Shown piece by piece: positions 1 to 19,393 of a stretch of DNA of 32,554 bases (positions are counted from its first letter, which is position 1; every line of letters begins with the position of its first letter). The translations under genes were made by a program, and so were the position numbers. The DNA is from Blastococcus sp. Its GTDB lineage: Bacteria > Actinomycetota > Actinomycetes > Mycobacteriales > Geodermatophilaceae. Under the pieces are notes generated by a model. It ran no database searches and had not been told where the DNA came from. It was given only the letters and a program-made list of their open reading frames with translations. The stretch is taken from assembly GCA_025965695.1 (NCBI GenBank), contig JAOPWM010000109.1, positions 1-32,554 of the forward strand, read 5' to 3'.

Positions 1-318
1 GCCCAGCACGCCGGCCGAGCCGGCGCGGGCGAGCAGCAGCCGGGCCTGGCCGAGCAGGTCCAGCGCGATGTTGGCCAGCGCCACCTCCTCCTCGAGTTCC
101 GGCGCTCCGGTCACCCACTGGGTCAGCCGCTGGGCCAGGACGAGCGCGTCGTCGCCGAGCATCAGGCAGTAGGTGCCGAGGTCTGCGGGGTCGATGCCGT
201 CGGGGACGGTGGTGTCGACGCCGGCCAGCGGGTCGTCGAACCCGGTGCCGAACGCCCACTGGCCCTCGCCACCGTGGGCCTGGTCGAGCGCGTCGTACAC
301 CGTTTCCTCGTGGGGCAT
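1..318 (-). CDS. paaC: PaaC, phenylacetyl-CoA epoxidase structural subunit (3' end outside window)
   Basis: PaaC is the non-catalytic partner of PaaA in the multicomponent monooxygenase that epoxidises phenylacetyl-CoA. The 106 visible residues hold the typical PaaC N-terminal region: GDDALVLAQRLTQW followed by ELEEEVALANIALDLLGQARLLL, the ferritin-like helices that pack on PaaA. The ATG at 318-316 is preceded on the minus strand by a purine-rich stretch (GAGAGGG). It is the third gene of a paaA-paaB-paaC run. Unlike paaA/paaB, which overlap, it is separated from paaB by about 95 bases that hold two hairpins. The gene continues past base 1, so its C-terminus cannot be judged. paaD and paaE would be expected further left. 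Confidence 0.93.
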   Translation of the reverse strand, partial: MPHEETVYDALDQAHGGEGQWAFGTGFDDPLAGVDTTVPDGIDPADLGTYCLMLGDDALVLAQRLTQWVTGAPELEEEVALANIALDLLGQARLLLARAGSAGVLG

Positions 319-332
319 GGGAACCCTCTCTT

Positions 333-356: not shown

Positions 357-412
357 GGCCCTCGTGCAGGGACCCGCCGCGAGCGTGCGAGCGGTGGGGG
401 GCACGAGGGTCC
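357..412. repeat. Palindromic repeat family, copy A
   Basis: The outer arms CCCTCGTGC (359-367) and GCACGAGGG (401-409) pair over 9 bp. Inside is a second stem, CCCGCCGC against GCGGTGGG, around the core GAGCGTGCGAG. The core GCAGGGnCyCGCCGCGAGCnT recurs at 7726-7746 and, diverged, at 703-723. The element starts 2 bases beyond the paaB stop. On the minus strand one frame would read PPPLARSRRVPA, the same peptide type as the other copies, but this frame does not join paaC. See findings for the covariation. Confidence 0.8.
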
Positions 413-413
413 T

Positions 414-779
414 TCACATGTGGGGGACGTTCTCCGGGATCTCGTAGAACGTCGGGTGCCGGTAGACCTTGTCGCCGTTCGGGGCGAACATCGGGTCCTT
501 CTCGTCGGGGCTCGAGGCGGTGATGTCTGCGGCCTTCACCACCCAGATGCTCACACCCTCGTTGCGCCGGGTGTAGACGTCGCGGGCGGCGTGCACGGCC
601 ATCTCGTCGTCCGGCGCGTGCAGCGAGCCGACGTGGACGTGGTTGAGCCCCCGTTTGCCGCGGACGAACACCTCGTAGAGCGGCCAGTCCCGACGGCCCC
701 GTCCAGGGGCCCGCCCCGAGCCTGCGAGGGGTGGGGAGGACGGGGTGTTTTTCCCGCCCTCTGCGGTCATGTCGCTCAT
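414..779 (-). CDS. paaB: PaaB, phenylacetyl-CoA epoxidase subunit, with repeat-encoded N-terminus
   Basis: PaaB is a small subunit of the PaaABCE epoxidase, thought to bridge PaaA/PaaC units. From [20 protein letters not shown] through [19 protein letters not shown] to the terminal [16 protein letters not shown] the protein matches the family closely. It is 121 aa, while PaaB is usually about 95, because some 28 residues precede the conserved start. About 18 of those, [18 protein letters not shown], are encoded by the palindromic repeat at 697-752. The start ATG at 779 overlaps the paaA stop (ATGA) and has GGAG upstream. The only other ATG (770) also lies before the repeat. No ATG, GTG, TTG or CTG codon occurs in frame between the repeat and WPLYEV, so the repeat must be translated. 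Confidence 0.95.
697..752. repeat. Palindromic repeat family, copy B (inside paaB)
   Basis: CCCCGTCC (697-704) pairs perfectly with GGACGGGG (738-745). The plus strand then reads TGTTTTT, which looks like an intrinsic terminator for transcripts antisense to paa. The inner core matches copies A and C except that a G:C pair in the inner stem is replaced by C:G (GCCGCGAG to GCCCCGAG, GAGCGG to GAGGGG). It begins 24 bases after the paaA stop and lies inside the paaB reading frame. Confidence 0.8.
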
Positions 780-1714
780 GCGTGCTTCTCCGCATACGCG
801 GTGGCTGCGTCAATGACCCAGGCGTTCTCGTCCCGCGCGGCCCGCCGGCGGGCGATCCGCTCGTCGTTGCACGGGCCCTGTCCGCCGATCACCCGCTTGA
901 ACTCCGCCCAGTCGATCGCGCCGAAGCGGTAGTGCCCGGTCTCCGGGTCGAGGGAGAGCTCGGGGTCGGGCAGCGTGACCCCGAGGAAGTCCGCCTGCGG
1001 CACGGACATGTCCACGTACCGCTGCCGCAGCTCGTCGTTCGTGTGCCGCTTGATGCCCCACGCCATCGACTGCGCGCTGTTCGGGCTGTCGTCGTCGGGC
1101 GGGCCGAACATCATCAGCGACGGCCACCACCACCGGTCGACGGCGTCCTGCACCATCGCCCGCTGCTCGGGCGTGCCGCCCATCATCGCCATCAGCAGCT
1201 CGTAGCCCTGCCGCTGGTGGAAGGACTCCTCCTTGCAGACGCGGATCATCGCCCGCGCATAGGGCCCGTAGGAGCTGCGGCACAGCGGCACCTGGTTGCA
1301 GATCGCCGCACCGTCGACCAGCCAGCCGATGACGCCGACGTCGGCGTAGGTCAGCGACGGGTAGTTGAAGATCGAGCTGTACTTCTGCCTGCGCTCGATC
1401 AGCTTGTCGGTGAGGTCGGCCCGGTCGGCGCCGAGGGTCTCCGCGGCGGAGTACAGGTACATGCCGTGGCCGGCCTCGTCCTGCACCTTGGCCAGCAGGA
1501 TCGCCTTGCGCCGCAGGCTGGGGGCGGCCAGCAGCCAGTCGCCCTCCGGCTGCATCCCGATGATCTCCGAGTGCGCGTGCTGCGCGATCTGCCGGATCAG
1601 TCCGTTGCGGTAACCGTCGGGCATCCAGTCCCGGGGCTCGATGCGGTGGCCGGCCGCGATCGTGGCGTCGAAGTGCGCCTGCAGATCCACGTCGTCGAGC
1701 GCAGCGGCGGTCAT
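776..1714 (-). CDS. paaA: PaaA, catalytic subunit of ring-1,2-phenylacetyl-CoA epoxidase
   Basis: PaaA carries the di-iron centre that epoxidises the aromatic ring of phenylacetyl-CoA. At 312 aa the length is normal for the family. Diagnostic stretches include the iron-binding helices with [30 protein letters not shown] and [17 protein letters not shown], supplying the Glu and His ligands, and the later [17 protein letters not shown] chose ATG 1714-1712 because GGAGA sits 5 bases upstream. An in-frame start at 1777 would add 21 residues absent from the family and run through the operator. It is the first gene of paaABC, divergent from paaK, and ends in an ATGA overlap with paaB. Regulation is probably by the TetR protein encoded at 3156-3764. 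Confidence 0.97.
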
Positions 1715-1733
1715 CGCGTCTCCAGGAGGGGCA

Positions 1734-1762
1734 TTTACTGACCGTTTGGTCAGGAATAGTGT
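1734..1762. promoter_or_regulatory. Divergent paa promoter with TetR-type operator
   Basis: CTGACC-GTTT-GGTCAG (1738-1753) is a perfect 6+6 inverted repeat of the kind bound by TetR-family repressors of paa and acyl-CoA genes in actinobacteria. On the plus strand it sits between a possible -35 (TTTACT, 1734-1739) and -10 (TAGTGT, 1757-1762) with a 17-base spacer, so a bound repressor would cover the paaK promoter. It is also just 24 bases upstream of the paaA start. The linked TetR gene is the likely binder; that is inference. Confidence 0.7.
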
Positions 1763-1827
1763 GACGCACGACACCACGGCAGCACAAGGTCGGCACGACG
1801 CGCCTCGCGCGGTCAGAAGGGACGGCG

Positions 1828-3159
1828 ATGACGACGGAGACCAGCCGGCGACGAGGCAGCACCCCCGACCCCACGACGCTGGATCCGGCCGAGCGGATGA
1901 GCCTCGACGAACTGCGCGAGACGCAGCTGACGCGGTTGCAGTGGACCCTTCGCCACGCCTACGAGAACGTCCCGCACTACCGGCGGGCCTTCGACCTCGC
2001 CGGCGTCCACCCCGACGACTGCCAGGAGCTGGCCGACCTCGCGAAGTTCCCGCTGACGAGCAAGGAGGACCTGCGGGAGAACTACCCGTTCGGCATGTTC
2101 GCCGTCCCGCAGGACCGGATCCGCCGTGTGCACGCCTCCTCCGGCACGACCGGCCGGCCCACCGTCGTGGGCTACACCGAGGGCGACCTCGACACCTGGG
2201 CCACGGTCATGGCGCGGTCGATCCGGGCCGCGGGCGGCCGGCCGGGCGACAGAGTGCATGTGGCCTACGGGTACGGGCTGTTCACCGGCGGGCTCGGCGC
2301 CCACTACGGCGCGGAGAAGCTCGGCTGCACGGTCATCCCCGTCTCCGGGGGCATGACCCCGCGCCAGGCGCAGCTGATCACCGACTTCCGGCCCCGGGTG
2401 ATCATGGTGACGCCGTCCTACATGCTCGCCGTCATCGACGAGCTCGAGCGGCAGGGCATCGACCCGCGGACGACCTCCCTGGAGATCGGCATCTTCGGCG
2501 CCGAACCCTGGACCGACCGGATGCGCGAGGAGATCGAGGGCCGGCTCGGGATCGACGCCGTCGACATCTACGGGCTGTCGGAGGTCATGGGCCCGGGCGT
2601 GGCCCAGGAGTGCGTCGAGACCAAGGACGGCCTGCACGTCTGGGAGGACCACTTCTACCCGGAGGTGGTCGACCCGCTGACCGGCGAGGTGCTGCCCGAC
2701 GGCGAACGCGGCGAGCTGCTGTTCACCACCCTGACCAAGGAGGGCATGCCGGTCATCCGCTACCGCACGCGCGACCTGACCCGACTGCTCCCGGGCACCG
2801 CGCGCCCAGGGATGCGCCGCATGGAGAAGGTCACCGGCCGGACCGACGACATGATCATCCTGCGCGGGGTGAACCTGTTCCCGACGCAGGTCGAGGAGGT
2901 CGTCCTCCGGACGGCGGGGCTGTCCCCGCACTTCCGCCTGGTGCTGACCACGCACGGCCGCCTCGACCACCTCACCGTGGAGGTGGAGGCACGGACCGAC
3001 TGCCCGGACGACCGCCGGACGTCGGCTGCGGACGAGGTCGCGGCGACGGTCAAGGAGACTGTCGGGGTGAGCGTGGACGTCGTCGTCGTCGACCCCGAGA
3101 CGCTGCCTCGGTCGGTGGGCAAGCTCCAGCGTCTTCTGGATCAGCGCACCCGTCCGTGA
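1828..3159 (+). CDS. paaK: Phenylacetate-CoA ligase
   Basis: PaaK activates phenylacetate with ATP and CoA to phenylacetyl-CoA, the substrate of PaaABCE. At 443 aa the length is normal. The ANL-superfamily motifs are in place: [15 protein letters not shown] (phosphate-binding loop, about residues 102-116), [26 protein letters not shown] (hinge aspartate), [20 protein letters not shown], and a C-terminal VGKLQRL with the catalytic lysine. The ATG is preceded by GAAGGGA. The gene diverges from paaA across a shared operator, and its stop TGA overlaps the GTG start of the TetR gene, so ligase and regulator are translationally coupled. Confidence 0.97.
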
Positions 3160-3764
3160 GCGAGCAGGCGGCGCGGCGCGGGCGCCCGGGCCACTCGCTG
3201 GAGTCGCTGCTCGCCGTCGCCGTCGCCGTCTTCAACGAGCGCGGCTACGAGGCGACGAGCATGGACGAGCTCGCCCTGCGGGCCGGGATCACGAAGTCGG
3301 CGATCTACCACCACGTGCCGGGCAAGGAGGAACTGCTGCGGCTGGCCGTGAAACGGGCTCTGGACGGACTGTTCGCCGTGACCCGGGAACCGGAGGCGAC
3401 GACGGGCCCCGCGATCGGCCGGCTCGAGCACGTCGTCCGCGGGTCGGTCCGGGTGCTGACGGCGGAGCTGCCGTTCGTCACCCTGCTGCTGCGGGTGCGC
3501 GGCAACACCGACGTCGAGCGGGCGGCCCTGGAGCGGCGGCGCGAGTTCGACCGCATCGTCAGCGACCTCGTGCGGGCCGCGGAGCGTGAGGGCAGCGTGC
3601 GTCCGGACGTCGATCCGGCGGTGATCGGCCGGCTGCTGTTCGGCACGGTCAACTCCCTGACCGAGTGGTACCGCCCGGGCGGCCCGCTGACCGCTGACGA
3701 CCTCGCGAATGCGCTCGTGGCGACCACGTTCGACGGTCTGCGCACGGCGCCGCGACAGCGGTGA
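3156..3764 (+). CDS. TetR-family regulator, probable PaaR
   Basis: A 202-aa TetR-family repressor. The N-terminal helix-turn-helix reads ATSMDELALRAGITKSAIYHHVPGKEELL (about residues 30-58), the classic TetR signature. The rest is an all-helical ligand-binding domain ending TADDLANALVATTFDGLRTAPRQR. I chose the GTG at 3156 because it overlaps the paaK stop (GTGA) and gives the usual short N-terminus. No separate Shine-Dalgarno is visible, which fits coupling. Its place in the paa locus and the operator at 1738-1753 suggest that it represses paa genes and is released by phenylacetyl-CoA, as for other PaaR proteins. The last 60 or so bases are duplicated as a fossil at 4432-4495. Confidence 0.9.
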   Translation: MSEQAARRGRPGHSLESLLAVAVAVFNERGYEATSMDELALRAGITKSAIYHHVPGKEELLRLAVKRALDGLFAVTREPEATTGPAIGRLEHVVRGSVRVLTAELPFVTLLLRVRGNTDVERAALERRREFDRIVSDLVRAAEREGSVRPDVDPAVIGRLLFGTVNSLTEWYRPGGPLTADDLANALVATTFDGLRTAPRQR

Positions 3765-3931
3765 CAGCCGAGCGGGGGTCCAGACCGGGGACACCCGCAA
3801 CCGGCCACGGAGTTCCGGCAGGGCACTGGTCACTGCGCTCGGGCGCGCGCATCCTTGGACCCGTAACTCACCCGGACCCACTCCGAGCAGGAGAGTGACC
3901 TCAGCCCGAGAACAAGCAGAAGGAGAGGGCG

Positions 3932-4378
3932 ATGACCCTTTCTATGCCGTCCGCATCCCGCGTGACCGCTCGCTGGGACCCGTTCCGTGAGGTGGACGAG
4001 CTCTACAGGCAGATGAACCACCTCTTGGAGACCGGCGTCAGCACCGACGGTGCCACCCGCTGGGTTCCCCTGGCCGACATCGAGGAGACCGACGACGCCT
4101 ACATCGTCGAGATGGAGCTACCGGGCGTCAAACAGGACGACGTCGACATCGAGGTCAACGGCCGCGAACTCACCGTGTCCGGTGAGGTCAAGGAGAAGGA
4201 ACGCGCCGGGATCCTCCGCCGGCGAACCCGCAAGGTCGGCGAGTTCAGCTACACCGTGAGCCTGCCCATGGAGATCGACGCCGACAGCGTCAGCGCCGAC
4301 CTCGACAGCGGCGTGCTCACCATCAGGGTGCCGAAGTCCCAGGGGACGAAGTCGCGGCACGTGACCATCGGCAGCTGA
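3932..4378 (+). CDS. Hsp20 / alpha-crystallin small heat-shock protein
   Basis: An ATP-independent holdase chaperone that forms oligomers and keeps unfolding proteins soluble. At 148 aa it has the usual Hsp20 layout: a short N-terminal arm (RWDPFREVDELYRQMNHLLE), an alpha-crystallin domain from about residue 42 (WVPLADIEETDDAYIVEMELPGV, ELTVSGEVKEK, GEFSYTVSLP) and the A-x-x-x-n-G-V-L motif (ADLDSGVLTIRVPK, about 123-136), then a short tail. The ATG follows AAGGAGAGG. The gene stands alone between two TetR-derived sequences. The 167 bases upstream hold no HAIR/HspR-type or CIRCE repeat that I can see, so its heat control is unclear. Confidence 0.93.
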   Translation: MTLSMPSASRVTARWDPFREVDELYRQMNHLLETGVSTDGATRWVPLADIEETDDAYIVEMELPGVKQDDVDIEVNGRELTVSGEVKEKERAGILRRRTRKVGEFSYTVSLPMEIDADSVSADLDSGVLTIRVPKSQGTKSRHVTIGS

Positions 4379-4401
4379 TCGGTCGGTCCGCCCGGCGGGT
4401 G

Positions 4402-4426
4402 CCCGGACACGACGACCGCGTCCGGG
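4402..4426 (+). terminator. Hairpin after hsp20
   Basis: CCCGGAC (4402-4408) pairs with GTCCGGG (4420-4426) across an 11-base loop, 23 bases beyond the hsp20 stop. There is no T-tract, as is common for actinobacterial terminators. Placement is the main evidence. Confidence 0.45.
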
Positions 4427-4431
4427 TGCCC

Positions 4432-4495
4432 CGGCTGACTGCCGATGGCGTCACGAACGCGCTGGTGGCGACCGCATTCGACGGTCAGCCCACCG
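4432..4495 (+). pseudogene. Remnant of a TetR gene 3' end
   Basis: The translation RLTADGVTNALVATAFDG mirrors PLTADDLANALVATTFDG, the C-terminus of the paa-linked TetR. DNA identity to 3687-3749 is roughly 75-80 percent by hand alignment over about 60 bases. No start, helix-turn-helix or upstream body of a regulator remains here, so this is a fossil of a paralogous or duplicated regulator. It is in frame with the hydrolase that follows, which makes an artificially long start for that gene look possible; the remnant argues against it. Confidence 0.75.
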
Positions 4496-4515
4496 GCTGG
4501 CCCGCCGGGCGGCGG

Positions 4516-5364
4516 ATGCGGCAGGCTGGCGCCGTGGACAGCTTCCGCCGCGACGGCCTGACCTTCGACGTCCGGGACGCCGGCCCGCCCGACGGGGAGC
4601 CCGTCGTCCTCCTGCACGGCTTCCCGCAGGACTCGGCCGCCTGGGACCAGGTGGCGCCGGCGCTGCACCAGGCGGGACTGCACACGCTCGCGCCGGATCA
4701 GCGCGGTTACTCCCCCATGGCGCGGCCTCGGGGGCGCGGCCGGTACCGGCTGCGCGAGACGACCGCCGACGTCCTCGCCCTGCTCGACGCCGCCGGGCTG
4801 GAGAGCGCGCACGTGGTCGGGCACGACTGGGGTGGCATCGTGGGCTGGGCGCTGGGCGCCTGGCACCCGGATCGGGTGCGGACGCTGACGGCGCTGTCGG
4901 TGCCGCATCCCGCGGCGATGGCGAAGGCCATGGTCACGAGTGACCAGGCGCTGCGCTCGTCCTACGTGTTCGCTTTCCAGCTGCCGTTCCTGCCCGAGCG
5001 CCTCCTGCTGTCCGGTGGTGGCAGGCCGCTGCGCCGGATGCTGCGCGGCGGTGGCCTGTCCCGGGAGGCTGCCGCCCACTACGTCGGCCGCATGTGCGAG
5101 CCGGGGGCACTCAGCGCTGCCCTCGGCTGGTACCGCGCGCTGCCGCTGAGCCGCCTTGACCGGGTGGGCACCGTGCGCGTGCCGACGCTGCACGTGTGGA
5201 GCACCGGAGACACCTTCCTCGGCCGGGCCGCCACCGAGGCGACGGCGCAGTTCGTGGACGCCCCCTACCGGCTCGAGGTGCTCGAGGGCATCTCGCACTG
5301 GATCCCCGAGCTCGCCGGGGACCGCGTCGCGGAACTGGTCACCGCCCACGTCCGCACCGCCTGA
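4516..5364 (+). CDS. Alpha/beta-fold hydrolase (epoxide hydrolase/haloalkane dehalogenase-like)
   Basis: A 282-aa serine-hydrolase-fold protein. VVLLHGFPQDSAAWDQV carries the HGFPQ oxyanion-hole motif, and VVGHDWGGIVGW carries the nucleophile elbow with Asp (G-H-D-W-G-G), as in epoxide hydrolases and haloalkane dehalogenases rather than Ser esterases. The acid is probably in LHVWSTGDTFLG and the general base His in ISHWIPEL. A cap region lies between. The natural substrate is not predictable. The start is ATG 4516 or GTG 4534; the in-frame ATG at 4399 would include the TetR fossil and is rejected. Two perfect palindromes follow directly after the stop. Confidence 0.85.
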   Translation: MRQAGAVDSFRRDGLTFDVRDAGPPDGEPVVLLHGFPQDSAAWDQVAPALHQAGLHTLAPDQRGYSPMARPRGRGRYRLRETTADVLALLDAAGLESAHVVGHDWGGIVGWALGAWHPDRVRTLTALSVPHPAAMAKAMVTSDQALRSSYVFAFQLPFLPERLLLSGGGRPLRRMLRGGGLSREAAAHYVGRMCEPGALSAALGWYRALPLSRLDRVGTVRVPTLHVWSTGDTFLGRAATEATAQFVDAPYRLEVLEGISHWIPELAGDRVAELVTAHVRTA

Positions 5365-5422
5365 CGGACTTTCGGCGCCGAAAGTCCGGCCTGGTGCCCG
5401 GACTTTCGGCGCCGAAAGTCCG
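5365..5422. repeat. Tandem pair of perfect 24-bp palindromes
   Basis: The half-site CGGACTTTCGGC followed directly by its reverse complement forms a loopless 24-bp palindrome at 5365-5388 and again at 5399-5422. The second extends to 26 bp with flanking C/G. The copies are identical and their centres are 34 bp apart. The first starts at the base after the hydrolase stop. They may act as a bidirectional terminator (very stable hairpins), or as a site for a dimeric protein. The right copy abuts the truncated VOC gene fragment. Confidence 0.85.
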
Positions 5423-5560
5423 GTGCACCGCGACCTCGGCGGGAGGCATCTGCAGGATCAGCCAGCCTCCGCCGGCGTCCACGGCGGGTAGCTCGAGCAC
5501 GTCCCGGAGGAATACCCGGTCCGCCCCTGCGTCGCTGCTGCAGAGGATCACGTGGGCGCC
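5423..5560 (-). pseudogene. VOC (glyoxalase/bleomycin-resistance) family fragment
   Basis: The minus strand reads RGAHVILCSSDAGADRVFL, then RDVLELPAVDAGGGWLILQM, then PPAEVAVH. This is the first beta-alpha-beta unit of a vicinal-oxygen-chelate protein. It stops at the edge of the palindrome pair: the next codons read through the palindromes as RTFGAESPG. A family member would continue for about 70-90 more residues. The codon where a start would be expected reads AGG after an in-frame TGA. The fragment is therefore truncated at its 3' end and probably has no start. Confidence 0.65.
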
Positions 5561-5631
5561 TCGGAGCCTTCACCCGACCTAGGACCGGGCGCTGACCGGT
5601 TGCTGGCCGCGCCTCCGGGTAGCGGCTGTTC

Positions 5632-6714
5632 ATGGCTCAGTTCACCAGCGATCAACTCCGCGGGATGACGGTCGCCGTCACCGGCGCCAGCGGCAACCTC
5701 GGGACGGCGCTGCTGCGCCGGCTGAGCGCGCCGGGAGCCGGGGTGGCCGAGGTCCGCGGGCTGGCCCGCCGGCAGCCCCCGGAGGTCGCCCCCTACTCCG
5801 GAGTCCGGTGGCACCTGACGGACCTCGGTGGCCCGCACAGCGAGGAGGCGCTCGCCGATTTCATGGACGGCGTCGACGCCGTCGTCCATCTGGCCTGGGC
5901 GCTGCAGCCGGGCCGGCAGCCCGACGACCTGCGCCGGGTCAACGTCGAAGGCACCCGCCGGGTGGTGCGCGCGGCCGCGGTCGCCGGCGTCGGCCACGTC
6001 GTGCACCTGTCCTCCATCGGCGCCTATGCACCCGGTGCGGTCGGGCAGCGCGTCGCCGAGGACTGGCCGACCACCGGTATCCCGAGCGCGCAGTACAGCC
6101 GGGACAAGTCCGAGGCTGAGCGCGTCGTCCGGGAGATCGCGGCCCGGCACCCGGAGATGACGGTGAGCGTCGTCCGGCCGACGCTGGTCCTGCAGCCGGA
6201 CGCCGGCAGCGAGATCGGTCGCTACTTCCTCGGTCCGCTGCTGTTCGGGGCCGCGCGTCTGCTACCGGGTGCGGTCGCCCGGCTGCTCCCGCTGCCGCTC
6301 CCCCGGCTCGCGGTGTCCTTCGTGCACGCCGACGACGTCGCCGACGCCGTGGTCCGGATGCTCGACCGCCGGGCTCCCGGCCCGTTCAACCTCGCCGCCG
6401 AACCGCTGCTGGACGCCGATGGCCTGGCCCGCGCCCTGGGGACCATGCGGGTGCCCGTCCCCGCACTGGCCCTGCGGACGGCGCTGCAAGCCGCGTTCAG
6501 CGCGCACCTGGTCCCGACCGAGCCGGGGTGGCTCGACATCGCCACCCGCGTGCCCGCGCTGAACACCGCGCGCGCCCGGAAGCTGCTGGACTGGGCCCCG
6601 GTGTACCGCGGGGACGAGGTGCTCCGGGACTTCGTCGCCGCCCTCGGCCACGGCGAGGGTGCACCAGGCCCCCTCCTGCGGCCGGCCGGTACCCCGCTCA
6701 CCCGCGCGACCTGA
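5632..6714 (+). CDS. NAD-dependent epimerase/dehydratase (extended SDR)
   Basis: A 360-aa Rossmann-fold protein of the extended short-chain dehydrogenase group. VAVTGASGNLGTALLRRL (about residues 14-31) is the TGxxGxxG dinucleotide loop. DAVVHLAWALQPG follows, then the active-site region HLSSIGAYAPG with YSRDKSEAE (YxxxK) downstream. FVHADDVADAVVRML is the typical C-terminal substrate-domain helix. These proteins act on nucleotide sugars or on sterol/flavonoid-type substrates; nothing nearby settles which. The ATG at 5632 gives a full-length protein and has only weak ribosome-binding signal. It is monocistronic: a gene fragment on the opposite strand lies on each side. Confidence 0.85.
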   Translation: MAQFTSDQLRGMTVAVTGASGNLGTALLRRLSAPGAGVAEVRGLARRQPPEVAPYSGVRWHLTDLGGPHSEEALADFMDGVDAVVHLAWALQPGRQPDDLRRVNVEGTRRVVRAAAVAGVGHVVHLSSIGAYAPGAVGQRVAEDWPTTGIPSAQYSRDKSEAERVVREIAARHPEMTVSVVRPTLVLQPDAGSEIGRYFLGPLLFGAARLLPGAVARLLPLPLPRLAVSFVHADDVADAVVRMLDRRAPGPFNLAAEPLLDADGLARALGTMRVPVPALALRTALQAAFSAHLVPTEPGWLDIATRVPALNTARARKLLDWAPVYRGDEVLRDFVAALGHGEGAPGPLLRPAGTPLTRAT

Positions 6715-6771
6715 GGGCCAGATCTCAGCGCGCGAACAGCAGCGAACGACCCAGCCTCGCCCAGTCGTCCG

Positions 6772-7049
6772 TCAGCCCCACAACAGCGCAGTGGGGTCGC
6801 GATCGATCTCGGCCAGGAGCTCATCGACGGTGCGCGCGAAGCGCAGGTCGGGGTATTCATGCCAGCGTTCGTCGCTGCCGCACCAGTACAGCCGCCAGAC
6901 CCTCCGGGACGTGAGGTAGCGGAGCAGTGCAACAGGAGTGCTCATCCACTCCGGATCGGCCCGCAGGCCCCAGGGCGGCCTGCGCTCGACAATCGTGACG
7001 TCGCGGGCGGGACATCTCGCATTCGATGCGGAGCTGGCTCCGCACGTCG
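6772..7049 (-). pseudogene. DUF3024 protein gene, truncated and frameshifted
   Basis: The minus strand reads VRSQLRIECEMS in one frame. After a one-base shift near 7003-7015 it continues as RDVTIVERRPPWGLRADPEW, then MSTPVALLRYLTSRRVWRLYW, ending VDELLAEIDRDPTALLWG and TGA at 6772-6774. The WxLYW and L-AEIDRDP-xx-WG motifs are those of DUF3024 proteins, normally about 110-115 aa. The 5' end is missing at the junction with the thioesterase stop (7050). A 57-aa product could still start at ATG 6945, but it would lack half the domain. A sequencing error could explain the shift but not the missing N-terminus. Confidence 0.7.
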
Positions 7050-7784
7050 TCAGTTCCGGCTGGTCCAGGCCTTGATGTCGCGGCCGGTCTTCGCGAAGAC
7101 GTCGGCCGCCCGCTCGGGACGGAGGGCCACGAACAGCCCCTCGGCCTCGGCGAGGGTCGTGTCCGGGTCGTCCTCGGCGACCAGGCGGGCGCGCGCCGTC
7201 GTCCGCCGTCCCTCCGTGGCCCCCATCTCGGCGGTCGCGATCAGGGCGACGCCGAGCTGCACCGGACGCCGGTAGGTGACGGTGAGCGTGGCGGTCAGGC
7301 CCCCGCGGCCGGCCGCCCGCACGGCCCGGGCGAGCACGTGGTCGAGCAGGGTCGCGACGACGCCGCCGTGCACCAACCCGGGCGGGCCCTCGTGCGGCTT
7401 GCCGAGCACGACCCGGCCGGTGGCCCGGCCGTCGGCGGCGGCCGTGACGACCAAAGGGGGCGCCACCGGGTTGCCCGGGCCGTAGACCGGGCTGTACCAG
7501 CGCTCCCCGGTCTCCGGGTCGTCGACGGAGGCGATCTCGTGCAGCGTCCGGGTCTTGCCGCGCAGCCGGGCGGCGAGTTCCCGGGCGAGGCCCGCGGCCT
7601 CGGCCAGCTCGGGAAGCGGGACCTCGGTGCGGACGGCGGCATCGACCAGGTCGCGCAGCGCAGAGCCGAGATCCCCGACGGCGTCGCGCCGGACGCCCCG
7701 CTCCTCCGGGCTCAGCGGCCCTCCTGCAGGGTCTCGCCGCGAGCTTGCGAGCGGTGGGGGGAAGGAGGGCCCTTTCTCAGCCAC
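7050..7784 (-). CDS. Hotdog-fold thioesterase (PaaI/4HBT-like) with repeat-encoded N-terminus
   Basis: A 244-aa protein whose C-terminal two thirds is a hotdog acyl-CoA thioesterase: GKPHEGPPGLVHGGVVATLLDHVLARAV holds the HGG motif and the catalytic acidic residue, and LTATLTVTYRRPVQLG is the central strand. It probably hydrolyses an acyl-CoA. The helical N-terminal part (about residues 25-95) is unassigned. The GTG start at 7784 overlaps the stop of the acyl-CoA dehydrogenase, implying coupling and a shared pathway. Codons 5-22, GPSFPPPLASSRRDPAGG, come from the palindromic repeat copy C. Downstream of it only CTG codons are available as starts, so either the repeat is translated or a rare CTG is used. 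Confidence 0.85.
   Translation of the reverse strand: MAEKGPSFPPPLASSRRDPAGGPLSPEERGVRRDAVGDLGSALRDLVDAAVRTEVPLPELAEAAGLARELAARLRGKTRTLHEIASVDDPETGERWYSPVYGPGNPVAPPLVVTAAADGRATGRVVLGKPHEGPPGLVHGGVVATLLDHVLARAVRAAGRGGLTATLTVTYRRPVQLGVALIATAEMGATEGRRTTARARLVAEDDPDTTLAEAEGLFVALRPERAADVFAKTGRDIKAWTSRN
7717..7771. repeat. Palindromic repeat family, copy C
   Basis: GGCCCTCCT (7717-7725) pairs perfectly with AGGAGGGCC (7763-7771). The core between them is nearly identical to copy A (GCAGGGnCyCGCCGCGAGCnT, then GCGAGCGGTGGGGGG), although the outer arms differ in sequence. The plus strand continues CTTTCTC. It begins 6 bases beyond the stop of the acyl-CoA dehydrogenase and falls inside the first codons of the thioesterase frame. 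Confidence 0.85.
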
Positions 7785-8931
7785 GCGCCATGCCGGCCTC
7801 GCGCAACAGCGCGCCGCCGATGATCACCCGCTGCACCTCGCTGGTGCCCTCGTAGAGCCGGAAGAGGCGGGCGTCCCGGTAGAACCGCTCGACCGGCGTC
7901 GTCCGCAGGTAACCCATGCCGCCGTGCACCTGCACCGCCCGGTCGACGGCACGGCCGACCATCTCGGTGCAGAAGAGCTTCGCCGACGACGGGCCGACCG
8001 ACGTGTCCGCGCCGCTGTCGTAGGCGGCGGCGACCTCGCGGACCATGCTGCGGGCGGCAAGGAGTTCTGCGTGCATGTCGGCGAGCATCCCCTGGACCAG
8101 CTGGAACCGGCCGATCGGGGCACCACCCTGCTTGGCCGTCGCCGCATAGGCGACCGACTCGTCGAGCACCCGCTGGGCCATGCCGACGCACAGGGCCGCG
8201 ATGTGCAGCCGGCCACGGGAGAGAACGGTGAGCGCCTTCGCGTATCCGCGGCCCTCCTCGCCGATGAGCGCCTCAGCGGGCACCCGCACGTCGTCGAAGA
8301 AGACCTCGGCGGTCCAGGCGCCGGCCTGCCCCATCTTCTTGTCCTTGGGGCCGACGGTCACCCCCGGCGTCGACGTCTCGACGACGAAGCTGGAGATCCC
8401 ACGGCCGCCGCGCTCGTCAGGGTTGCTCCGGGCGAAGACGACGAAGAGGTCGGCGATCGGCGCATTGGTGATGTAGCGCTTGCTGCCGTTGATCACCCAC
8501 TCGTCGCCGTCGCGGCGGGCGGTGGTCCGCAGCCCGGCGGGGTCGGAGCCGGCCTCGGCCTCGGTGAGGGCAAAGGAGCCGATGAGCTCGCCGGCGGCCA
8601 GTCGGGGCAGGTAGGCCTTCTTCTGCTCGTCGGTGCCGAACTTGGCGATGACCTGTCCGGCGATGCCGTTGTTGGTACCGAACAGCGAGCGGAACGCGGG
8701 CGTCGTGTAGCCGAACTCGAACGCCAGCTGGACGTCCTCGCTCATGGTGACCCCGAGCCCGCCGTACTCCTCCGGCAGCGCATAGCCGAACAGGCCCATC
8801 TCGGCGGCCTGGGCGCGCAGCTGGTCGGGGATGCGGTCCTCGTCCTCGATCTGCTCTTCGCGCGGGATGACCGACTCGCGGACCAACTCACGTACGGCGT
8901 CCCTGATCTGGCGGAAGTCTTCAGCGTCCAC
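7777..8931 (-). CDS. Acyl-CoA dehydrogenase
   Basis: A 384-aa FAD-dependent acyl-CoA dehydrogenase, oxidising an acyl-CoA to the enoyl-CoA with electrons passed to ETF. Seen in order: N-terminal helical domain with PEEYGGLGV, the middle beta-domain with SFALTEAEAGSDPAGL (FAD/substrate signature) and WVINGSKRYITNAPIAD, and the C-terminal domain with VQVHGGMGYLRTTPVERFYRDAR. The catalytic glutamate is in LYEGTSEVQR (about residue 364). The GTG at 8931 is the only start giving the normal N-terminus; the ATG 8 bases upstream is out of frame. It is the first gene of a two-gene unit with the thioesterase. Chain-length preference cannot be read from sequence alone. Confidence 0.93.
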   Translation of the reverse strand: MDAEDFRQIRDAVRELVRESVIPREEQIEDEDRIPDQLRAQAAEMGLFGYALPEEYGGLGVTMSEDVQLAFEFGYTTPAFRSLFGTNNGIAGQVIAKFGTDEQKKAYLPRLAAGELIGSFALTEAEAGSDPAGLRTTARRDGDEWVINGSKRYITNAPIADLFVVFARSNPDERGGRGISSFVVETSTPGVTVGPKDKKMGQAGAWTAEVFFDDVRVPAEALIGEEGRGYAKALTVLSRGRLHIAALCVGMAQRVLDESVAYAATAKQGGAPIGRFQLVQGMLADMHAELLAARSMVREVAAAYDSGADTSVGPSSAKLFCTEMVGRAVDRAVQVHGGMGYLRTTPVERFYRDARLFRLYEGTSEVQRVIIGGALLREAGMARG

Positions 8932-13917: not shown

Positions 13918-13998
13918 GCGGGAGTGGTGTAACGGCAGCCACGCCAGACTTAGGATCTGGTGCCTTCGGGCGTGGGGGTTCGAGTCCCCCCTCCCGCA
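13918..13998 (+). tRNA. tRNA-Leu (anticodon UAG)
   Basis: The acceptor stem GCGGGAG (13918-13924) pairs with CTCCCGC (13991-13997), with discriminator A13998. The anticodon stem CCAGA/TCTGG encloses the loop CTTAGGA, anticodon TAG at 13951-13953. A long variable arm (GCC-TTCG-GGC) marks a class II tRNA, consistent with leucine. The T arm GGGGG-TTCGAGT-CCCCC is perfect. CCA is not encoded. No other tRNA is adjacent. Confidence 0.96.
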
Positions 13999-14522: not shown

Positions 14523-15419
14523 ATGGGATCCCTTGTGGAGACAGGACCTTCAGCGCAGCCTGCGCCGGTGGGCGTCTACAACAAGCACCTGCGACCTTCG
14601 CTGCACACCCTCGCCCTCAGCGACCGCGTCACTGGCGCGGTACGGGACAGGGTGTGTACCGGGCTGACCGGGGACGTCCTCGAGATCGGCTACGGCTCCG
14701 GGCTCAACCAACCGCATCTGCCGACGTCGGTGAAGGCGGTGTGGGCGATCGAGCCGTCCGCGACCGCCCTCGGGCTCGGCGAGGGACGCCGGAGCGCCTC
14801 GGCGGTCCCGGTGGTCGTCGCCGGTGACGACGCGCAGTCGCTCCCTTTCCCCGACGAGCGCTTCGATGCCGCGCTGTGCACCTGGGTGCTCTGCGGCGTC
14901 CCCGACCCGGGTGCGGCTCTGGCGGAGGTGGCCCGCGTCCTGAAGCCCGGAGCGACGCTGCACTTCGTCGAGCACGGGCTGGCACCGGATCCCGCCGTCG
15001 TCCGCTGGCAGCGCCGGAGCAACGCGATCAACCGGGTCGTTGCCGGTTGCGTGCTCGACAACGACGTCCGGTCACTCCTGGACGCCTCGCCGCTCACGGT
15101 CACCGAGATGAACGAGCACTATGAAAAAGGCGCACCCAAGGCCGCCGCCTTCATGTACGAGGGCCGTGCGACTGCCAGACGACAGCGCCCGGTCGCCCGT
15201 CGGGATGGGACGGGCGCCGCCGTCGTGCACCCCGCCCCCGCCGTCCGGCCCGGAGGCCGACACCTCGCGCCCGAGATCCCCGGCATGGCGCGGATCGCCG
15301 CCCCGGAGGACCTCACCCGCTCCGGCCGGCACACCGAACCGGAGTGGAGCCGGGAGCTGCACGACCCGCGCCGCGACGAGGTCGACGCCTTCGACTGGCT
15401 CGGCTTCGCGCAGTACTGA
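14523..15419 (+). CDS. Class I SAM methyltransferase fused to a duplicated C-terminal segment
   Basis: A 298-aa open frame. Residues 18-215 are a class I methyltransferase of the Methyltransf_11/UbiE-like group: VLEIGYGSGLNQPHLP (motif I, SAM binding), VWAIEPS (acidic strand 2), DDAQSLPFPDERFDAALCTWVLCGVPDP (motifs II-III), EVARVLKPGATLHFVEHG. Homologues normally end soon after the region YEKGAPKAAAFMYEGRAT. Here the frame continues without a stop for about 80 residues into RPGGRHLAPEIPGMARIAAP to DAFDWLGFAQY. That tail is a near copy of the small protein at 19136-19390. The start is ATG 14523 or GTG 14535. The substrate is unknown. Whether the fusion protein is made or functional is uncertain. 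Confidence 0.78.
   Translation: MGSLVETGPSAQPAPVGVYNKHLRPSLHTLALSDRVTGAVRDRVCTGLTGDVLEIGYGSGLNQPHLPTSVKAVWAIEPSATALGLGEGRRSASAVPVVVAGDDAQSLPFPDERFDAALCTWVLCGVPDPGAALAEVARVLKPGATLHFVEHGLAPDPAVVRWQRRSNAINRVVAGCVLDNDVRSLLDASPLTVTEMNEHYEKGAPKAAAFMYEGRATARRQRPVARRDGTGAAVVHPAPAVRPGGRHLAPEIPGMARIAAPEDLTRSGRHTEPEWSRELHDPRRDEVDAFDWLGFAQY
15190..15419 (+). repeat. Direct repeat flanking lysX, left copy (with 96-bp deletion)
   Basis: Bases 15214-15419 match 19185-19390 over 206 bp with about 12 mismatches and no gap, by hand alignment. 15190-15222 match 19065-19097. Relative to the right copy, the left copy lacks 96 bp lying between two direct GCGCCGCCG nonamers (19089 and 19185); one nonamer (15214-15222) remains. 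The loss removes the small gene's start and fuses its remainder to the methyltransferase. Confidence 0.85.
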
Positions 15420-15587
15420 GCTCAGTGCCTCTTGGTGCTCCGTGATGGTCCCGATGCCGTCGCGAAACAGATCCACGCTGTGCTCCTGGCGGTGCACGAT
15501 GTGCCGCAGACCGTAGCTCGGCGGCCGGAAGCCGATGTCGGCTCGCCGGCACGGACCCCGGCCGCCGACAGGAGTTGGGACCGAGAA

Positions 15588-18500
15588 ATGGCGACACGGC
15601 TGGCCACCAGGAGCAGCGTCCTGACGCCTGCGCCACCGGCCCCGCCCCGCCCCGTCCGTCGCACCCGGGGGTGGCAGGAGCCGTTCGCCCGCGTGGCGGC
15701 CGCCGTCGTCACGCTGGCCGCCGTCTGGTCGGTCCTGTCGGTGTTCCTGCGCGGCTCATGGCGGGGCATCGGCGACCTGTTCATCCTGGTCAACGTCCCC
15801 GAGACCACCTCGCTGTTCACCATCGCGCTGCTCTTCCTGCTGGCCGGCGCGCTGCACCGACGCCTGCGCCTCGCCCTCTGGATCCTGGTGGTGTTCCAGT
15901 CGCTGGCCCTCGTGGACGCGGCCGCCCAGATCGCGCTCGCGCTGACCAGCGGAAGCGGTTCTGTCCTCCGCCATTTCGCCACCCGGGACCGGGTGGAACT
16001 CGTCATCAGCATCTCCGTTGCGGTGATCCTGACGCCGTTCCTGGTCGCGGCCCGCGGCACCTTCCCGGCGCGGCTCTATCCCGCTTCCCGCCGTTCGGCC
16101 CCGCTCGTCCTTCTGGCTGGCCTCGTCATCGCGGCGACGGTGTCACTCCTCCTCACCTACCTGTTCCCCGCCACCCTCACCAGCCCGGGCGAGCGCGTCC
16201 TCTGGGCGCTGCGAATCGTCCTCGGCGTCGACACCGGACGGGTCGATTCGGCGGGCGCCGTTCACCGGGGACACCACTGGATCGCCTGGGTCGCCGGCCT
16301 GTTGTCGGGTCTGGCGCTGGTGACCGCGACGGTGGTGTTCCTCCGCGCCGCCCGCGCGAAGCTCTTCATGGACGCGCAGGACGAACTGGATCTGCGGCGT
16401 CTGCTGCTCGACTCGGGCGCCCGAGACTCGCTGGGCTACTTCGCCACGCGCCGGGACAGGTCCGTGGTCTTCCCGCCGGATCGCCGGGCGGCGGTGACCC
16501 ACCGGGTGCTGGCCTCGGTCAGCCTGGCCTCCGGTGACCCGATCGGCCCTCCGGAGGCGTGGCCGCAGGCCATTCGCAGCTGGCTGGCGGAGGCTCGTGC
16601 CTACGGCTGGTACCCGGCCGCGCTCGGCGTCAGCGAGGAGGGCGCCCGCGCCTTCGTGGCCGCCGGCCTCAAGGGGATCCCCCTCGGCGACGAGGCGATC
16701 ATCGACGTCCGCGCGTTCTCCCTGCGGTCACCGGCACTGCAACCGGTTCGCCGGGCGGTGGAACGGGTGGCCCGCGCGGGGTACACCGTGCGGGTGGTCC
16801 GGCACGCGGACCTGGCCGCCGACGAACTGGCCGAGATCAGCCGCTGCGCCGAGGAGTGGCGGGGCGACGAGCCGGAGCGCGGCTTCTCGATGGCGCTCAA
16901 TCGGCTCGGCGACCCCACCGACGGGCGCTGCGTCGCGGTGCAGTCCTTCGACGCGTCGGGTCGGCTGCGCGGCCTGCTGTCCTTCGTTCCCTGGGGACCT
17001 CATGGCCTGTCGCTGGACGTGATGCGCCGCGACCCCACGGCGGAGAACGGCGTCACCGAGTCGATGGTGACCGGTCTGATCGCGGCCTGCCCCGACCTCG
17101 GTGTCGTGCGGGTGTCGCTCAACTTCGTCGTCCTCCGTGGCGTGCTGGAGGCAGCCGAACGCGTCGGTGCCGGGCCACTCGTGCGCACCGGCAACGCCGC
17201 ACTGATCTTCACGTCCCGGTTCTGGCAACTCGAGACGCTCTACCGCACAACCGCGCGTTACCTGCCACGGTGGGAACCGCGCTACCTCTGCTACGAGTCC
17301 GCGTTCGCACTCCCCCGCGTGGCCCTCGCGGCGATGATGGCCGAGGGGTTCCTCCCACTTCCACCGACGCCACCGGCGCAGCGCCCCTCGGCAACAGTCA
17401 CCTGGCAAGGCCGGCCCGATGTGCCGTTGGAGGACGCCGTAGCCGAGCTCGAACGCCTGTCCGGTCGGCGGACCGCGCTCGGCCCGCGGCTCTCGGGACC
17501 GGAGGTGGTCCGCCGAAGCAAGCTGCGCCTGCTCGCCCAGGCAGGAATCGATCCCTATCCGGTCGGTGTGCCTCGGTCGTGCGAGGTTGCCGAGCTCCGG
17601 CGCCGGCACGGTGGCCTTGCTGCCGGCACACACACCGGCCGGTCCGAGTCGGTGACCGGGCGGGTCCGGGCGCTGCGCGACTTCGGTGGCCTCGTCTTCG
17701 CCGACCTCCAGGACGGCGAGGCCCGCATCCAGGCCATGCTGACCCGCGACCGGCTGGGGCCGGACCTGTTGCGGACGTGGCAGCGGGCGGTCGACCTCGG
17801 CGACCACGTCGGCGTGACCGGGGAAGTGGCGGCTTCCGACACCGGCGAGCTGTCCGTACTCGCCGACTCCTGGGTCATGGCGGCCAAGTGCCTGGAGCCG
17901 ATGCCCGGCCCCCGGGCGTCCTTCGCCGACCCGGAGGCCCGGATCCGGCAGCGTTCCCTCGACCTCATCGTGAACACGACCGCCATGGACACCGTCCTGG
18001 CGCGCAGCCGAGCGACGCGCGCGCTGCGCGAGCTCCTGGGCGCACGCGGCTTCAGCGAGGTGGAGACGCCGATCCTGCAGGCCGTGCACGGCGGCGCGAA
18101 CGCCCGACCCTTCACGACCAGCATCAACGCCTACGGCATGGACCTGTACCTGCGGATCGCGCCGGAGCTCTTCCTCAAGCGGCTGTGCGTGGGCGGGATG
18201 CAGAGGGTCTTCGAGCTCGGCCGCAACTTCCGCAACGAGGGCGCCGATGCCACGCACAACCCGGAGTTCACGTCCCTGGAGGCTTACCAGGCCTACGCCG
18301 ACTACTCGGTGATGCGGGACCTCGCCCGGGACCTGATCCTGACGGCCGCCGTCGCGGTGCACGGCTCCCCCGCCGCCCAGCGACTCGCGCCGGAGGGAGG
18401 CGTCACCACCGTCGACCTCTCCGGGCCGTGGCCCGTCGTCCCCGTGCACGAGGCCGTGAGCTGCGCGACCGGGACCGAACTGACCTCGGCGACGACGCGG

Positions 18501-18977
18501 GCCGACGTCCTGGCTGTGTGCCGGCGCCACGATGTCGCGGTGTCCCCGACCGCCACGGCAGGCGAGGCCGTCGTGAAGCTCTACGAAGCACGCGTCGAAC
18601 CCACGACGACGGCGCCGACCTTCTACACCGACTTCCCGCTGGAGTCCTCCCCCCTGGCCAGGGTGCATCGGAGCGATCCCCGACTGGCGGAACGGTGGGA
18701 CCTGGTGGCCTTCGGAACCGAGCTGGGCACCGCCTACTCGGAACTGACCGATCCGGTGGACCAGCGCCGCCGTCTCACGGAGCAGTCCCTGCGCGCGGTC
18801 GCCGGCGACGCCGAGGCGATGCAGCTGGACGAGGACTTTCTCCGTGCCATGGCGTACGGGATGCCACCGACGGGTGGTCTCGGACTGGGGATCGACCGGT
18901 TGCTCATGATGCTCACCGGAGGCTCCGTGCGCTCGACCCTGACCTTTCCGTTCGTGCGCCCCGACCGGGCGCGCTGA
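15588..18977 (+). CDS. lysX: LysX/MprF-type lysyl-phosphatidylglycerol synthase fused to lysyl-tRNA synthetase
   Basis: A bifunctional 1129-aa protein: the lysyl-tRNA synthetase part charges tRNA-Lys and the membrane part transfers lysine to phosphatidylglycerol, lowering surface negative charge and giving cationic peptide resistance. In order: about six membrane helices (residues ~34-54, 73-90, 97-118, 137-155, 171-193, 226-250), a DUF2156-type transferase domain to about 580, an OB-fold (GRVRALRDFGGLVFADLQDGEARIQ), then a class II aaRS core with motif 2 (VFELGRNFRNEGADATHNPEFTSLE) and motif 3 (GLGLGIDRLLMMLTG). M. tuberculosis LysX is of similar size. ATG 15588 follows an AGGAG 13 bases upstream; earlier in-frame starts have poor coding character. 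It lies between two direct repeats. Confidence 0.95.
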   Translation: MATRLATRSSVLTPAPPAPPRPVRRTRGWQEPFARVAAAVVTLAAVWSVLSVFLRGSWRGIGDLFILVNVPETTSLFTIALLFLLAGALHRRLRLALWILVVFQSLALVDAAAQIALALTSGSGSVLRHFATRDRVELVISISVAVILTPFLVAARGTFPARLYPASRRSAPLVLLAGLVIAATVSLLLTYLFPATLTSPGERVLWALRIVLGVDTGRVDSAGAVHRGHHWIAWVAGLLSGLALVTATVVFLRAARAKLFMDAQDELDLRRLLLDSGARDSLGYFATRRDRSVVFPPDRRAAVTHRVLASVSLASGDPIGPPEAWPQAIRSWLAEARAYGWYPAALGVSEEGARAFVAAGLKGIPLGDEAIIDVRAFSLRSPALQPVRRAVERVARAGYTVRVVRHADLAADELAEISRCAEEWRGDEPERGFSMALNRLGDPTDGRCVAVQSFDASGRLRGLLSFVPWGPHGLSLDVMRRDPTAENGVTESMVTGLIAACPDLGVVRVSLNFVVLRGVLEAAERVGAGPLVRTGNAALIFTSRFWQLETLYRTTARYLPRWEPRYLCYESAFALPRVALAAMMAEGFLPLPPTPPAQRPSATVTWQGRPDVPLEDAVAELERLSGRRTALGPRLSGPEVVRRSKLRLLAQAGIDPYPVGVPRSCEVAELRRRHGGLAAGTHTGRSESVTGRVRALRDFGGLVFADLQDGEARIQAMLTRDRLGPDLLRTWQRAVDLGDHVGVTGEVAASDTGELSVLADSWVMAAKCLEPMPGPRASFADPEARIRQRSLDLIVNTTAMDTVLARSRATRALRELLGARGFSEVETPILQAVHGGANARPFTTSINAYGMDLYLRIAPELFLKRLCVGGMQRVFELGRNFRNEGADATHNPEFTSLEAYQAYADYSVMRDLARDLILTAAVAVHGSPAAQRLAPEGGVTTVDLSGPWPVVPVHEAVSCATGTELTSATTRADVLAVCRRHDVAVSPTATAGEAVVKLYEARVEPTTTAPTFYTDFPLESSPLARVHRSDPRLAERWDLVAFGTELGTAYSELTDPVDQRRRLTEQSLRAVAGDAEAMQLDEDFLRAMAYGMPPTGGLGLGIDRLLMMLTGGSVRSTLTFPFVRPDRAR

Positions 18978-19064: not shown

Positions 19065-19390
19065 CGGTCACCCGTCGGGGTGGGACGGGCGCCGCCGACC
19101 TCTGCTGCGGCGACGAACCGTCCGACGTCCTAGGCATGACCAGCTCTGCTTCGTCGGCCACCTGGCTGCCGGCTGCCATCGCCCGCGCCGCCGTCGTGCA
19201 CGCCGCCCCGGCCGTCCGGCCCGGAGGCCGACACCTCGCGCCGGCTGTCCCCGGCATGGTGCGGATCGCCGCACCGGAGGACCTCACCCGCTCCGGCCGG
19301 CACACCGAGCCGGAGTGGAGCCGGGAGCTGCACGACCCGCGCCGCGACGAGGTCGACGCCTTCGACTGGCTGGGTTTCGGGCAGTACTGA
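19065..19390 (+). repeat. Direct repeat flanking lysX, right copy
   Basis: This is the intact partner of 15190-15419, and it contains the small gene 19136-19390. Weaker similarity with a one-base indel appears to reach further left (19029 against 15155, GTACGAGGGCC in both), where the left copy is still methyltransferase coding sequence. Confidence 0.8.
19136..19390 (+). CDS. Small hypothetical protein, source of the duplicated tail
   Basis: An 84-aa protein, MTSSASSATWLPAAIARAAV followed by VHAAPAVRPGGRHLAP and ending DEVDAFDWLGFGQY. It is arginine- and proline-rich with no signal, membrane helix or domain that I recognise. The C-terminal 67 residues are shared with the methyltransferase fusion with 5 differences, which suggests protein-level constraint on the acidic-aromatic end. 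The start ATG at 19136 has no strong ribosome-binding site (CTAGGC upstream), so the start is tentative. It ends 3 bases before the convergent rdgB stop. Confidence 0.55.
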   Translation: MTSSASSATWLPAAIARAAVVHAAPAVRPGGRHLAPAVPGMVRIAAPEDLTRSGRHTEPEWSRELHDPRRDEVDAFDWLGFGQY

Positions 19391-19393
19391 GCA

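Follow-up and report, generated by a model that had tools for sequence, protein, structure and literature searches.

Among tagged repetitive extragenic palindromic sequences (REPs), the GTAG kind is linked to REP-associated tyrosine transposases (RAYTs), and Rickettsia palindromic elements (RPEs) are palindromic repeats that lie in frame inside proteins. The main text of Di Nocera et al. 2013 (PMC3733652) describes GTAG and CGTC REPs as short palindromes present in tens to thousands of copies, with some intragenic units and clusters; it reports CGTC REPs without a dedicated transposase and names untagged stem-loop repeats for M. tuberculosis, D. radiodurans, Bordetellae and Brucellae. We analyzed a 32,554-nt stretch of Blastococcus sp. 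DNA (contig JAOPWM010000109.1 of assembly GCA_025965695.1, hereafter the window), which holds three copies (A, B, and C) of a palindromic element. An earlier note, made from the sequence alone, had placed them in the same orientation at 357-412, 697-752, and 7717-7771, where we also found them. The element is best read as a new REP-like, untagged palindromic family of Geodermatophilaceae, and its members are probably short non-autonomous REP or stem-loop palindromic repeats that are almost confined to this bacterial family, spread within it, are locked to stop codons, and occasionally lie in frame in proteins.

Like REPs, the element forms many dispersed palindromic copies that lie mostly outside genes: in a set of 190 copies, a pairing-selected subset of 272 core matches, 179 fell outside the open reading frames (ORFs) predicted by a home-made codon model, used in place of a gene finder. 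Tagged REPs have stems of 5–13 bp according to the main text of PMC3733652, whereas the two-part hairpin described here has about 18 pairs, no unpaired GTAG or CGTC tag, and variable complementary outer arms. As with the E. coli REPs treated in the main text of the RepRanger paper (PMC12306157), the hairpin stands close behind a stop codon. That text gives 446 of 4,072 as lying no more than 15 nt from one, and 260 of 496 for an earlier study, whereas here the right end lies -6 to 12 nt from a stop in 123 of the 179 copies outside predicted ORFs and the better-folding strand is antisense. According to work cited in the same text, ribosomes are stalled by REPs that lie within 15 nt of a stop codon, so an effect of the element on the upstream gene is plausible by analogy. 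The untagged stem-loop repeats are likewise REP-like and without conserved terminal motifs; by description, the element is set apart from them by its own sequence, its fixed stop spacing, and its paired variable arms. There is also a likeness to RPEs, of description and not of sequence, in that copies B and C are predicted in frame in proteins (RPE-bearing proteins are listed in the part of PMC2635572 consulted), but copies within ORFs are a minority here, at least 11 of 190, a lower bound since the codon model missed B and C. REP-like palindromes are not new to the phylum as such, since the tables of PMC12306157 list three Actinomycetota genomes (Arthrobacter, Acidipropionibacterium, and Acidimicrobium). 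The main text of that paper does not contain Geodermatophil- or Blastococcus, and the main text of PMC3733652 does not contain Geodermatophilus, Blastococcus, or Actinobacteri-. In the open-access library searched, we found no paper on such a repeat in Geodermatophilaceae, and at the Rfam gathering score the element was unmatched, the sole match in the window being a tRNA.

The family is large. A covariance model was built from 46 of 54 own-genome copies, the eight omitted having mostly shifted arms or tandem junctions. In the source genome, which is 81.5% complete, it gave 85 matches at E ≤ 0.01, and a complete chromosome from the same genus gave 116 at E ≤ 0.001, with 150 candidates scored in each case. 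A 20-base core pattern with at most two mismatches matched 61 sites in the source genome against 1 for the reversed pattern, and a structural scan yielded 86 copies against 1 in its reversed control. Among 61 genomes of the order, 32 of 37 Geodermatophilaceae (the source genome included) had matches, compared with 0 of 24 from other families; the covariance-model search of Geodermatophilaceae suggested in the earlier note thus found many further copies. Copy numbers from the multi-genome searches are lower bounds because few candidates were scored per genome (about 87 in the 61-genome search and 18 in a second search of 295 other genomes of the class). One Geodermatophilaceae genome (G015) had a single match, against at least about 87 in several genomes of its genus. 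The 295-genome set, which partly overlaps the 61-genome set, gave weak matches in two genomes, both of one family, and these look like real distant relatives. The few related hairpins seen there (L230–L233 in G337 and G062) have a GAGGG internal loop and a CGAGCNTGCGAG-type tip, a likeness that suggests an older origin of the element.

A pattern scan of named genomes found at least 119 loci; among the matches listed, 116 of 119 were labelled Geodermatophilaceae (Geodermatophilus, Blastococcus, Modestobacter, Trujillonella, Goekera, or the family name). The other three comprised two in a record labelled 'UNVERIFIED_ORG: Bacillus sp. AZ43' and one in a 'Frankiales bacterium' metagenome-assembled genome. 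The element was not found in the plasmid, phage, and viral-contig collections searched.

On the strand that reads plus in the window (the + strand), the consensus is GGCC-arm-[AC]GGGN-CCCGCC-S-CGAGCNTGCGAG-S-GGTGGGG-arm'-GGTCCTT. It describes a two-part hairpin of about 57–75 nt with a variable outer stem (10 pairs), an internal loop AGGGN/GR, an inner stem (8 pairs), and a CGAG...CGAG tip. In the alignment of 46 own-genome copies, 95.8% of cells were paired and 12 of 18 pairs showed two-sided changes; none of 500 shuffles reached any of five pairing measures, and slid versions paired at 49.9–61.2%. All 54 copies in the same frame still had 92.6% of cells paired, compared with at most 60.4% when slid. 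The covarying stems proposed in the earlier note therefore extend across the family, and the individual readings behind them were accurate, including the outer arms quoted for A, B, and C and the inner-stem swap in B, where column pair 26-39 is G-C in A, C-G in B, and G-C in C. Taken singly, only A folded well against shuffles (z -2.9 on the + strand and -2.7 on the minus strand); neither B (-0.7 and 0.3) nor C (-0.8 and -0.5) stood out, and the best fold of B alone differed from the proposed hairpin. The evidence for the hairpin rests on the family, not on the three window copies. The poor folding of B and C is what chance similarity or GC composition would give, but the reversed-pattern and reversed-scan counts, the shuffles, and the collapse of pairing in slid alignments rule that explanation out, and we give it practically no weight.

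Mutual information, computed with no helix supplied, pointed to the same stems: helix pairs made up 9 of the top 10 corrected scores in the 190-copy set, where covariation is partly built in because these copies were selected for pairing. In the unfiltered set of 272 core matches, they still took 5 of the 10 highest places. The remaining five in the latter set were neighboring end columns, which score high because arm length shifts the frame, plus columns 17-21 and 17-44. Columns 17, 21, and 44 changed jointly, being G,C,G in 161 of 190 copies and A,T,A in 23; column 17 is an internal-loop base and 21-44 an inner pair, so that this may be one subfamily event or a tertiary contact, and we claim no contact. 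The G.T pair at G23 and T42 (169 of 190) is conserved partly by construction, since the exact pattern used to find loci L111–L229 holds most inner-stem columns constant, these two among them; the own-genome pattern also fixes T42, with up to two mismatches allowed.

Two main arm types were distinguished. The constant-arm type comprised 38 of 190 copies, 36 of them with the left arm CCCCGTCC, and the arm-variable type comprised 112, which have a G-C pair at 13-49 and show 38 different left arms among them; 40 copies belonged to neither. A second tip, CGAGGNACGAG, occurred in 9 of the 86 structural-scan copies, and a third, CGAGCGGAGCGAG, was seen in G009; we take the tips to resemble a CNUG loop and GNA triloops on a tandem G.A stem. 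A subset had a 5' extension near GGTGACGTGCTGGAAC, with GGA[AG]C ahead of GGCC in 23 of 186 copies and 0 matches in the reversed control. Simple AAGGACC...GGTCCTT hairpins were found three times among the collected loci, once with the core.

The element usually sits just past a gene end. The 190 copies lay between two minus-strand genes (86), between convergent genes (56), between two plus-strand genes (17), between divergent genes (6), or within predicted ORFs (11), and 14 had a neighbor beyond the locus or unpredicted; the baseline for adjacent gene pairs was 260 --, 240 ++, 138 +-, and 129 -+. Where a minus-strand gene adjoined on the right, the right end of the element lay -1 to 7 nt from its stop in 121 of 149 cases. 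Among the 179 copies outside predicted ORFs, stop contact was at the right end only in 104, the left end only in 9, both ends in 19, and neither in 47. Against a null of uniform placement within each gap, a right end within 7 nt of a stop was found in 69 of 86 tandem gaps (21.0 expected) and 46 of 56 convergent gaps (23.0 expected). Restricting the comparison to gaps of at least 60 nt gave 31 of 45 tandem cases (2.6 expected) and 14 of 23 convergent cases (1.6 expected). For copies in the +/+ context, the stop adjoined the left end instead (6 of 17, 1.3 expected). The spacing in the earlier note, 2, 24, and 6 nt beyond the minus-strand stops at 414, 776, and 7777, is correct at the ORF ends. 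Across the family, stop codons are abutted more often than random placement would give, as in the long tandem gaps.

Adjoining stops were TGA in 103, TAG in 24, and TAA in 4 cases, against 593, 60, and 12 elsewhere (TGA rarer by elements, p 0.002), and a C preceded the stop in 98 of 131 cases by elements against 408 of 665 elsewhere (p 0.004). These differences are real but mild, and the stop sequence was rejected as a target motif; the element is locked to the gene end as such and not to a stop sequence. Such placement could also be explained by a sense mRNA element past the stop, acting to stabilize the mRNA upstream, to attenuate the operon, or to delay ribosome release, in line with the mRNA stabilizer or attenuator offered in the earlier note. 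The stop 3–4 nt from the element end (82 of 149), the excess of right-only contact, and the finding of an element by the paaB stop of 17 among 28 genomes all argue for it, but presence at a given gene is patchy, and the minus strand, which would be the sense transcript, is the less foldable one. Folded as RNA, 185 of 190 copies were more stable on the + strand (mean -38.3 versus -32.8 kcal/mol), and folded as DNA, 166 of 190 were; in the common orientation, this strand runs antisense to the gene that ends at the element.

Wobble pairs point the same way. At variable pairs, G.T exceeded A.C by 54 to 19 with a copy filter that took G.T as paired, and by 70 to 35 (p 8e-4) when the count was repeated on 227 copies with a strand-neutral filter; in the latter set, the inner stem gave 26 to 4, with a single pair supplying half of the 26, and the outer stem 44 to 31. 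Because the better-folding, G.T-wobble, and T-rich strand is antisense to the adjoining gene, the stabilizer or attenuator is weakened and we consider it quite unlikely, while the REP-like reading offered beside it stands.

The T-rich side is also on the + strand. In a flank set of 186 copies (four of the 190, with an unclear left end, were excluded), the two bases after the stem were T in 85% and 75%, and only these positions were clearly T-rich. At least four T in the first eight bases occurred in 72 of 186 copies on the + strand and in 0 of 186 on the minus strand, which agrees with the absence of a U-tract on the minus strand in the earlier note. The main functional rival is therefore a terminator or guard on the + strand, in which the hairpin and a short T-rich tail stop convergent or antisense transcription before the adjoining gene. 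The better folding of + strand RNA, the T-rich flank, the 56 of 190 copies between convergent genes, and the short fixed stop distance favor it; on the other side stand the restriction of T-richness to two positions, the 86 of 190 copies between tandem genes, where a terminator would face antisense, and the copies within proteins. We rate it as unlikely. A terminator scan made no call at the three window sites, which counts neither way, since the scan allows loops of 3–8 only and is blind to this hairpin.

The element spreads. Three copies nested within the inner stem or tip of another copy passed a strict filter (L021, L120, and L191), further chimeras were recognized by eye (e.g., L183, L196, L132, and L201), and empty orthologous sites exist. 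At orthologous gene ends across species, the element occurred in opposite orientation (L060 versus L079 and L216) or a different hairpin was present. The gene end of L026, orthologous to that of L216, carries a different double hairpin on GGACTTTCGGCGC and GAAAGTCC instead of the element. Tandem runs about 44–66 nt apart were observed at L033, L043, L200, L178, and L185, and contig C24 of G033 carries three equal-scoring copies at 140447-140641.

Comparison of orthologous copies bears on what the covariation means. The comparison covered 11 orthologous copy pairs with 82–98% flank identity, of which 3 share members (L111, L204, and L206), and kept a fixed frame for arms shifted by an indel. 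Differences appeared at 16 of 88 outer pairs. Fourteen of these changes were two-sided and still paired, none was one-sided with pairing kept, and two were broken. The inner stem of the same pairs differed at 6 of 88 positions, with four double and two one-sided changes. Gradual compensatory evolution should leave more intermediates, so we do not take covariation by itself to prove that an RNA fold is selected, and the statement in the earlier note that the compensatory change shows selection on the folded form does not hold on these counts. Copy replacement, hairpin-templated correction, and very strong selection all fit the two-sided changes. Derivation of the outer arms from a hairpin at the target was dropped as a general rule because nested copies carry their own arms; given coreless hairpins at orthologous sites (G012, L135, and L144), some copies may still have such an origin.

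Several observations weigh against a spreading repeat as the explanation. The RAYT domain Y1_Tnp (PF01797) was found in 0 of 23 Geodermatophilaceae genomes, no other enzyme family having been searched; in controls, the search was positive in 5 of 14 genomes, and 2 of 14 other-family genomes from the Geodermatophilaceae search have Y1_Tnp. No general target-site duplication, the mark of a miniature inverted-repeat transposable element of a DDE transposon, was seen: over 186 copies, flank repeats were no more frequent than in shuffled flanks. In G009, with no replication origin assigned, strand and replichore showed no bias (best split 20, null mean 18.5, 95th percentile 30). A selected function might account equally well for the stop lock and the turnover of arms, and the recurrence of the element by the paaB stop (17 of 28 genomes) is better matched by function or old inheritance than by random spread. 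A 6-base repeat, CTCAGC, around copy C was considered as a target duplication and rejected on the null result of the family-wide flank test.

No unpaired GTAG or CGTC tag appeared as a consensus in the end columns and flanks, although CGTC-like letters are present within the paired arm of the constant-arm type. With neither tag nor RAYT found, the element falls outside the tagged REP superfamilies. A true REP family mobilized by a RAYT (Y1/HUH transposase) would account for the dispersed imperfect palindromes, the nested copies, and the better folding of one strand, but the missing domain, the missing tag, and the lack of replichore bias in one genome largely refute it, and it is very improbable.

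For the untagged, non-autonomous repeat that we prefer, a host or mobile-element activity would copy the folded single + strand to new places without general target duplication, and copies landing just past a stop codon would be kept, or would be aimed there. The hairpin at the gene end may then affect termination or decay, as reported for E. coli REPs near stops. A more specific version is a RAYT-free mobile palindrome inserted at stop/start junctions as a folded single strand by a possibly host repair-linked activity, with the outer stem rewritten as a matched pair at each renewal, so that orthologous gene ends keep the hairpin shape and not its sequence; we regard this as speculative and unlikely. 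One actinobacterial family thus holds untagged, stop-locked repeats whose stems change as matched pairs, with no RAYT in the genomes searched, and offers a clean natural system for asking how untagged repeats move and whether they are aimed at gene ends. It also lets one ask when covariation in repeats reflects selection and when it reflects copying, and it cautions that covariation tallied across repeat copies can mimic RNA selection without proving it.

The window copies and their genes are listed in Table 1. From gene order, we take the paaA/paaC-type gene to be paaA and name the frame cut by the window edge paaC; its 105-aa stub was unmatched in Pfam.

Table 1. Copies of the element and adjoining genes in the window
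Feature	Position	Strand	Details
Copy A, arm-variable hairpin	357..412	+ (better-folding strand)	Arms CCCTCGTGC/GCACGAGGG; 80.7 bits
Copy B, constant-arm type	695..752	+	Arms CCCCGTCC/GGACGGGG; 77.1 bits
Copy C, arm-variable type	7717..7773	+	Arms GGCCCTCCT/AGGAGGGCC; 75.5 bits
Putative paaC, cut at window edge	2..319	-	Start at 317-319; read from sequence
paaB, 121 aa, including copy B-encoded residues	414..779	-	Pfam PF06243, E 6.7e-43; translation
paaA/paaC-type gene	776..1777	-	Pfam PF05138 PaaA_PaaC, E 2e-90
4HBT-type thioesterase, N-terminus from copy C	7050..7784	-	Pfam PF03061, E 2.9e-12; translation
Acyl-CoA dehydrogenase, stop adjoining copy C	7777..8931	-	Pfam PF00441, PF02770, PF02771

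Copy A lies just past the paaB stop (414-416, minus strand), between paaB and putative paaC, and is intercistronic as the earlier note had it; B and C, which it had also placed between genes, lie in coding frames and are predicted, from the open frames, to be part of proteins. At the paaB stop junction, read in 28 genomes, 17 had a recognizable element whose arms and tips vary, 2 (G012 and G019) had a hairpin that was degenerate or lacked the core, 2 (G001 and G002) had an unrelated palindrome, and 7 had none. The unrelated palindromes, L106 (G001) and L089 (G002), occupy the same paaB-paaC gap, as if the junction attracted or needed a hairpin.

Copy B is in frame at the 5' end of paaB, where it replaces an HGA[VI]P... 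linker. It was present in PaaB of 4 of 28 genomes (G000, G004, G007, and G014) as well as in the Blastococcus saxobsidens record L135; the linker was present in 23 of 28, and G033 had neither. Copy C forms, in frame, the first codons of the thioesterase, whose GTG start overlaps the stop of the acyl-CoA dehydrogenase gene. Among 27 orthologues of the latter, 4 had the element directly past the stop (G000, G014, G011, and G029) and 23 had none, including the close relatives G007 and G004 (95–96% identity). A downstream open frame began within the upstream stop region in 16 of 27, including all four filled genomes, and the script found none in 11. All four filled genomes read the element in frame, giving VAE-KGPSFPPPLASSRRDPAGGP-LSPEERG here versus VAE-LSPEERA in G036, so that in this overlapping gene pair the element sits at the same point and in the same orientation despite zero intergenic space. 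We take the copy C-site elements to span at least three lineages, a pattern that separate gains and an old insertion lost several times both fit.

Elsewhere in the window, a tRNA gene lies at 13918-13998 on the + strand. A 208-nt direct repeat, 94% identical (15214-15421 and 19185-19392), with a weaker repeat just upstream, flanks an ORF at 15432-18977 (+) with LPG-synthase and lysyl-tRNA synthetase domains, which we take to be a LysX-type gene; the repeat pair looks like a partial duplication around this ORF.

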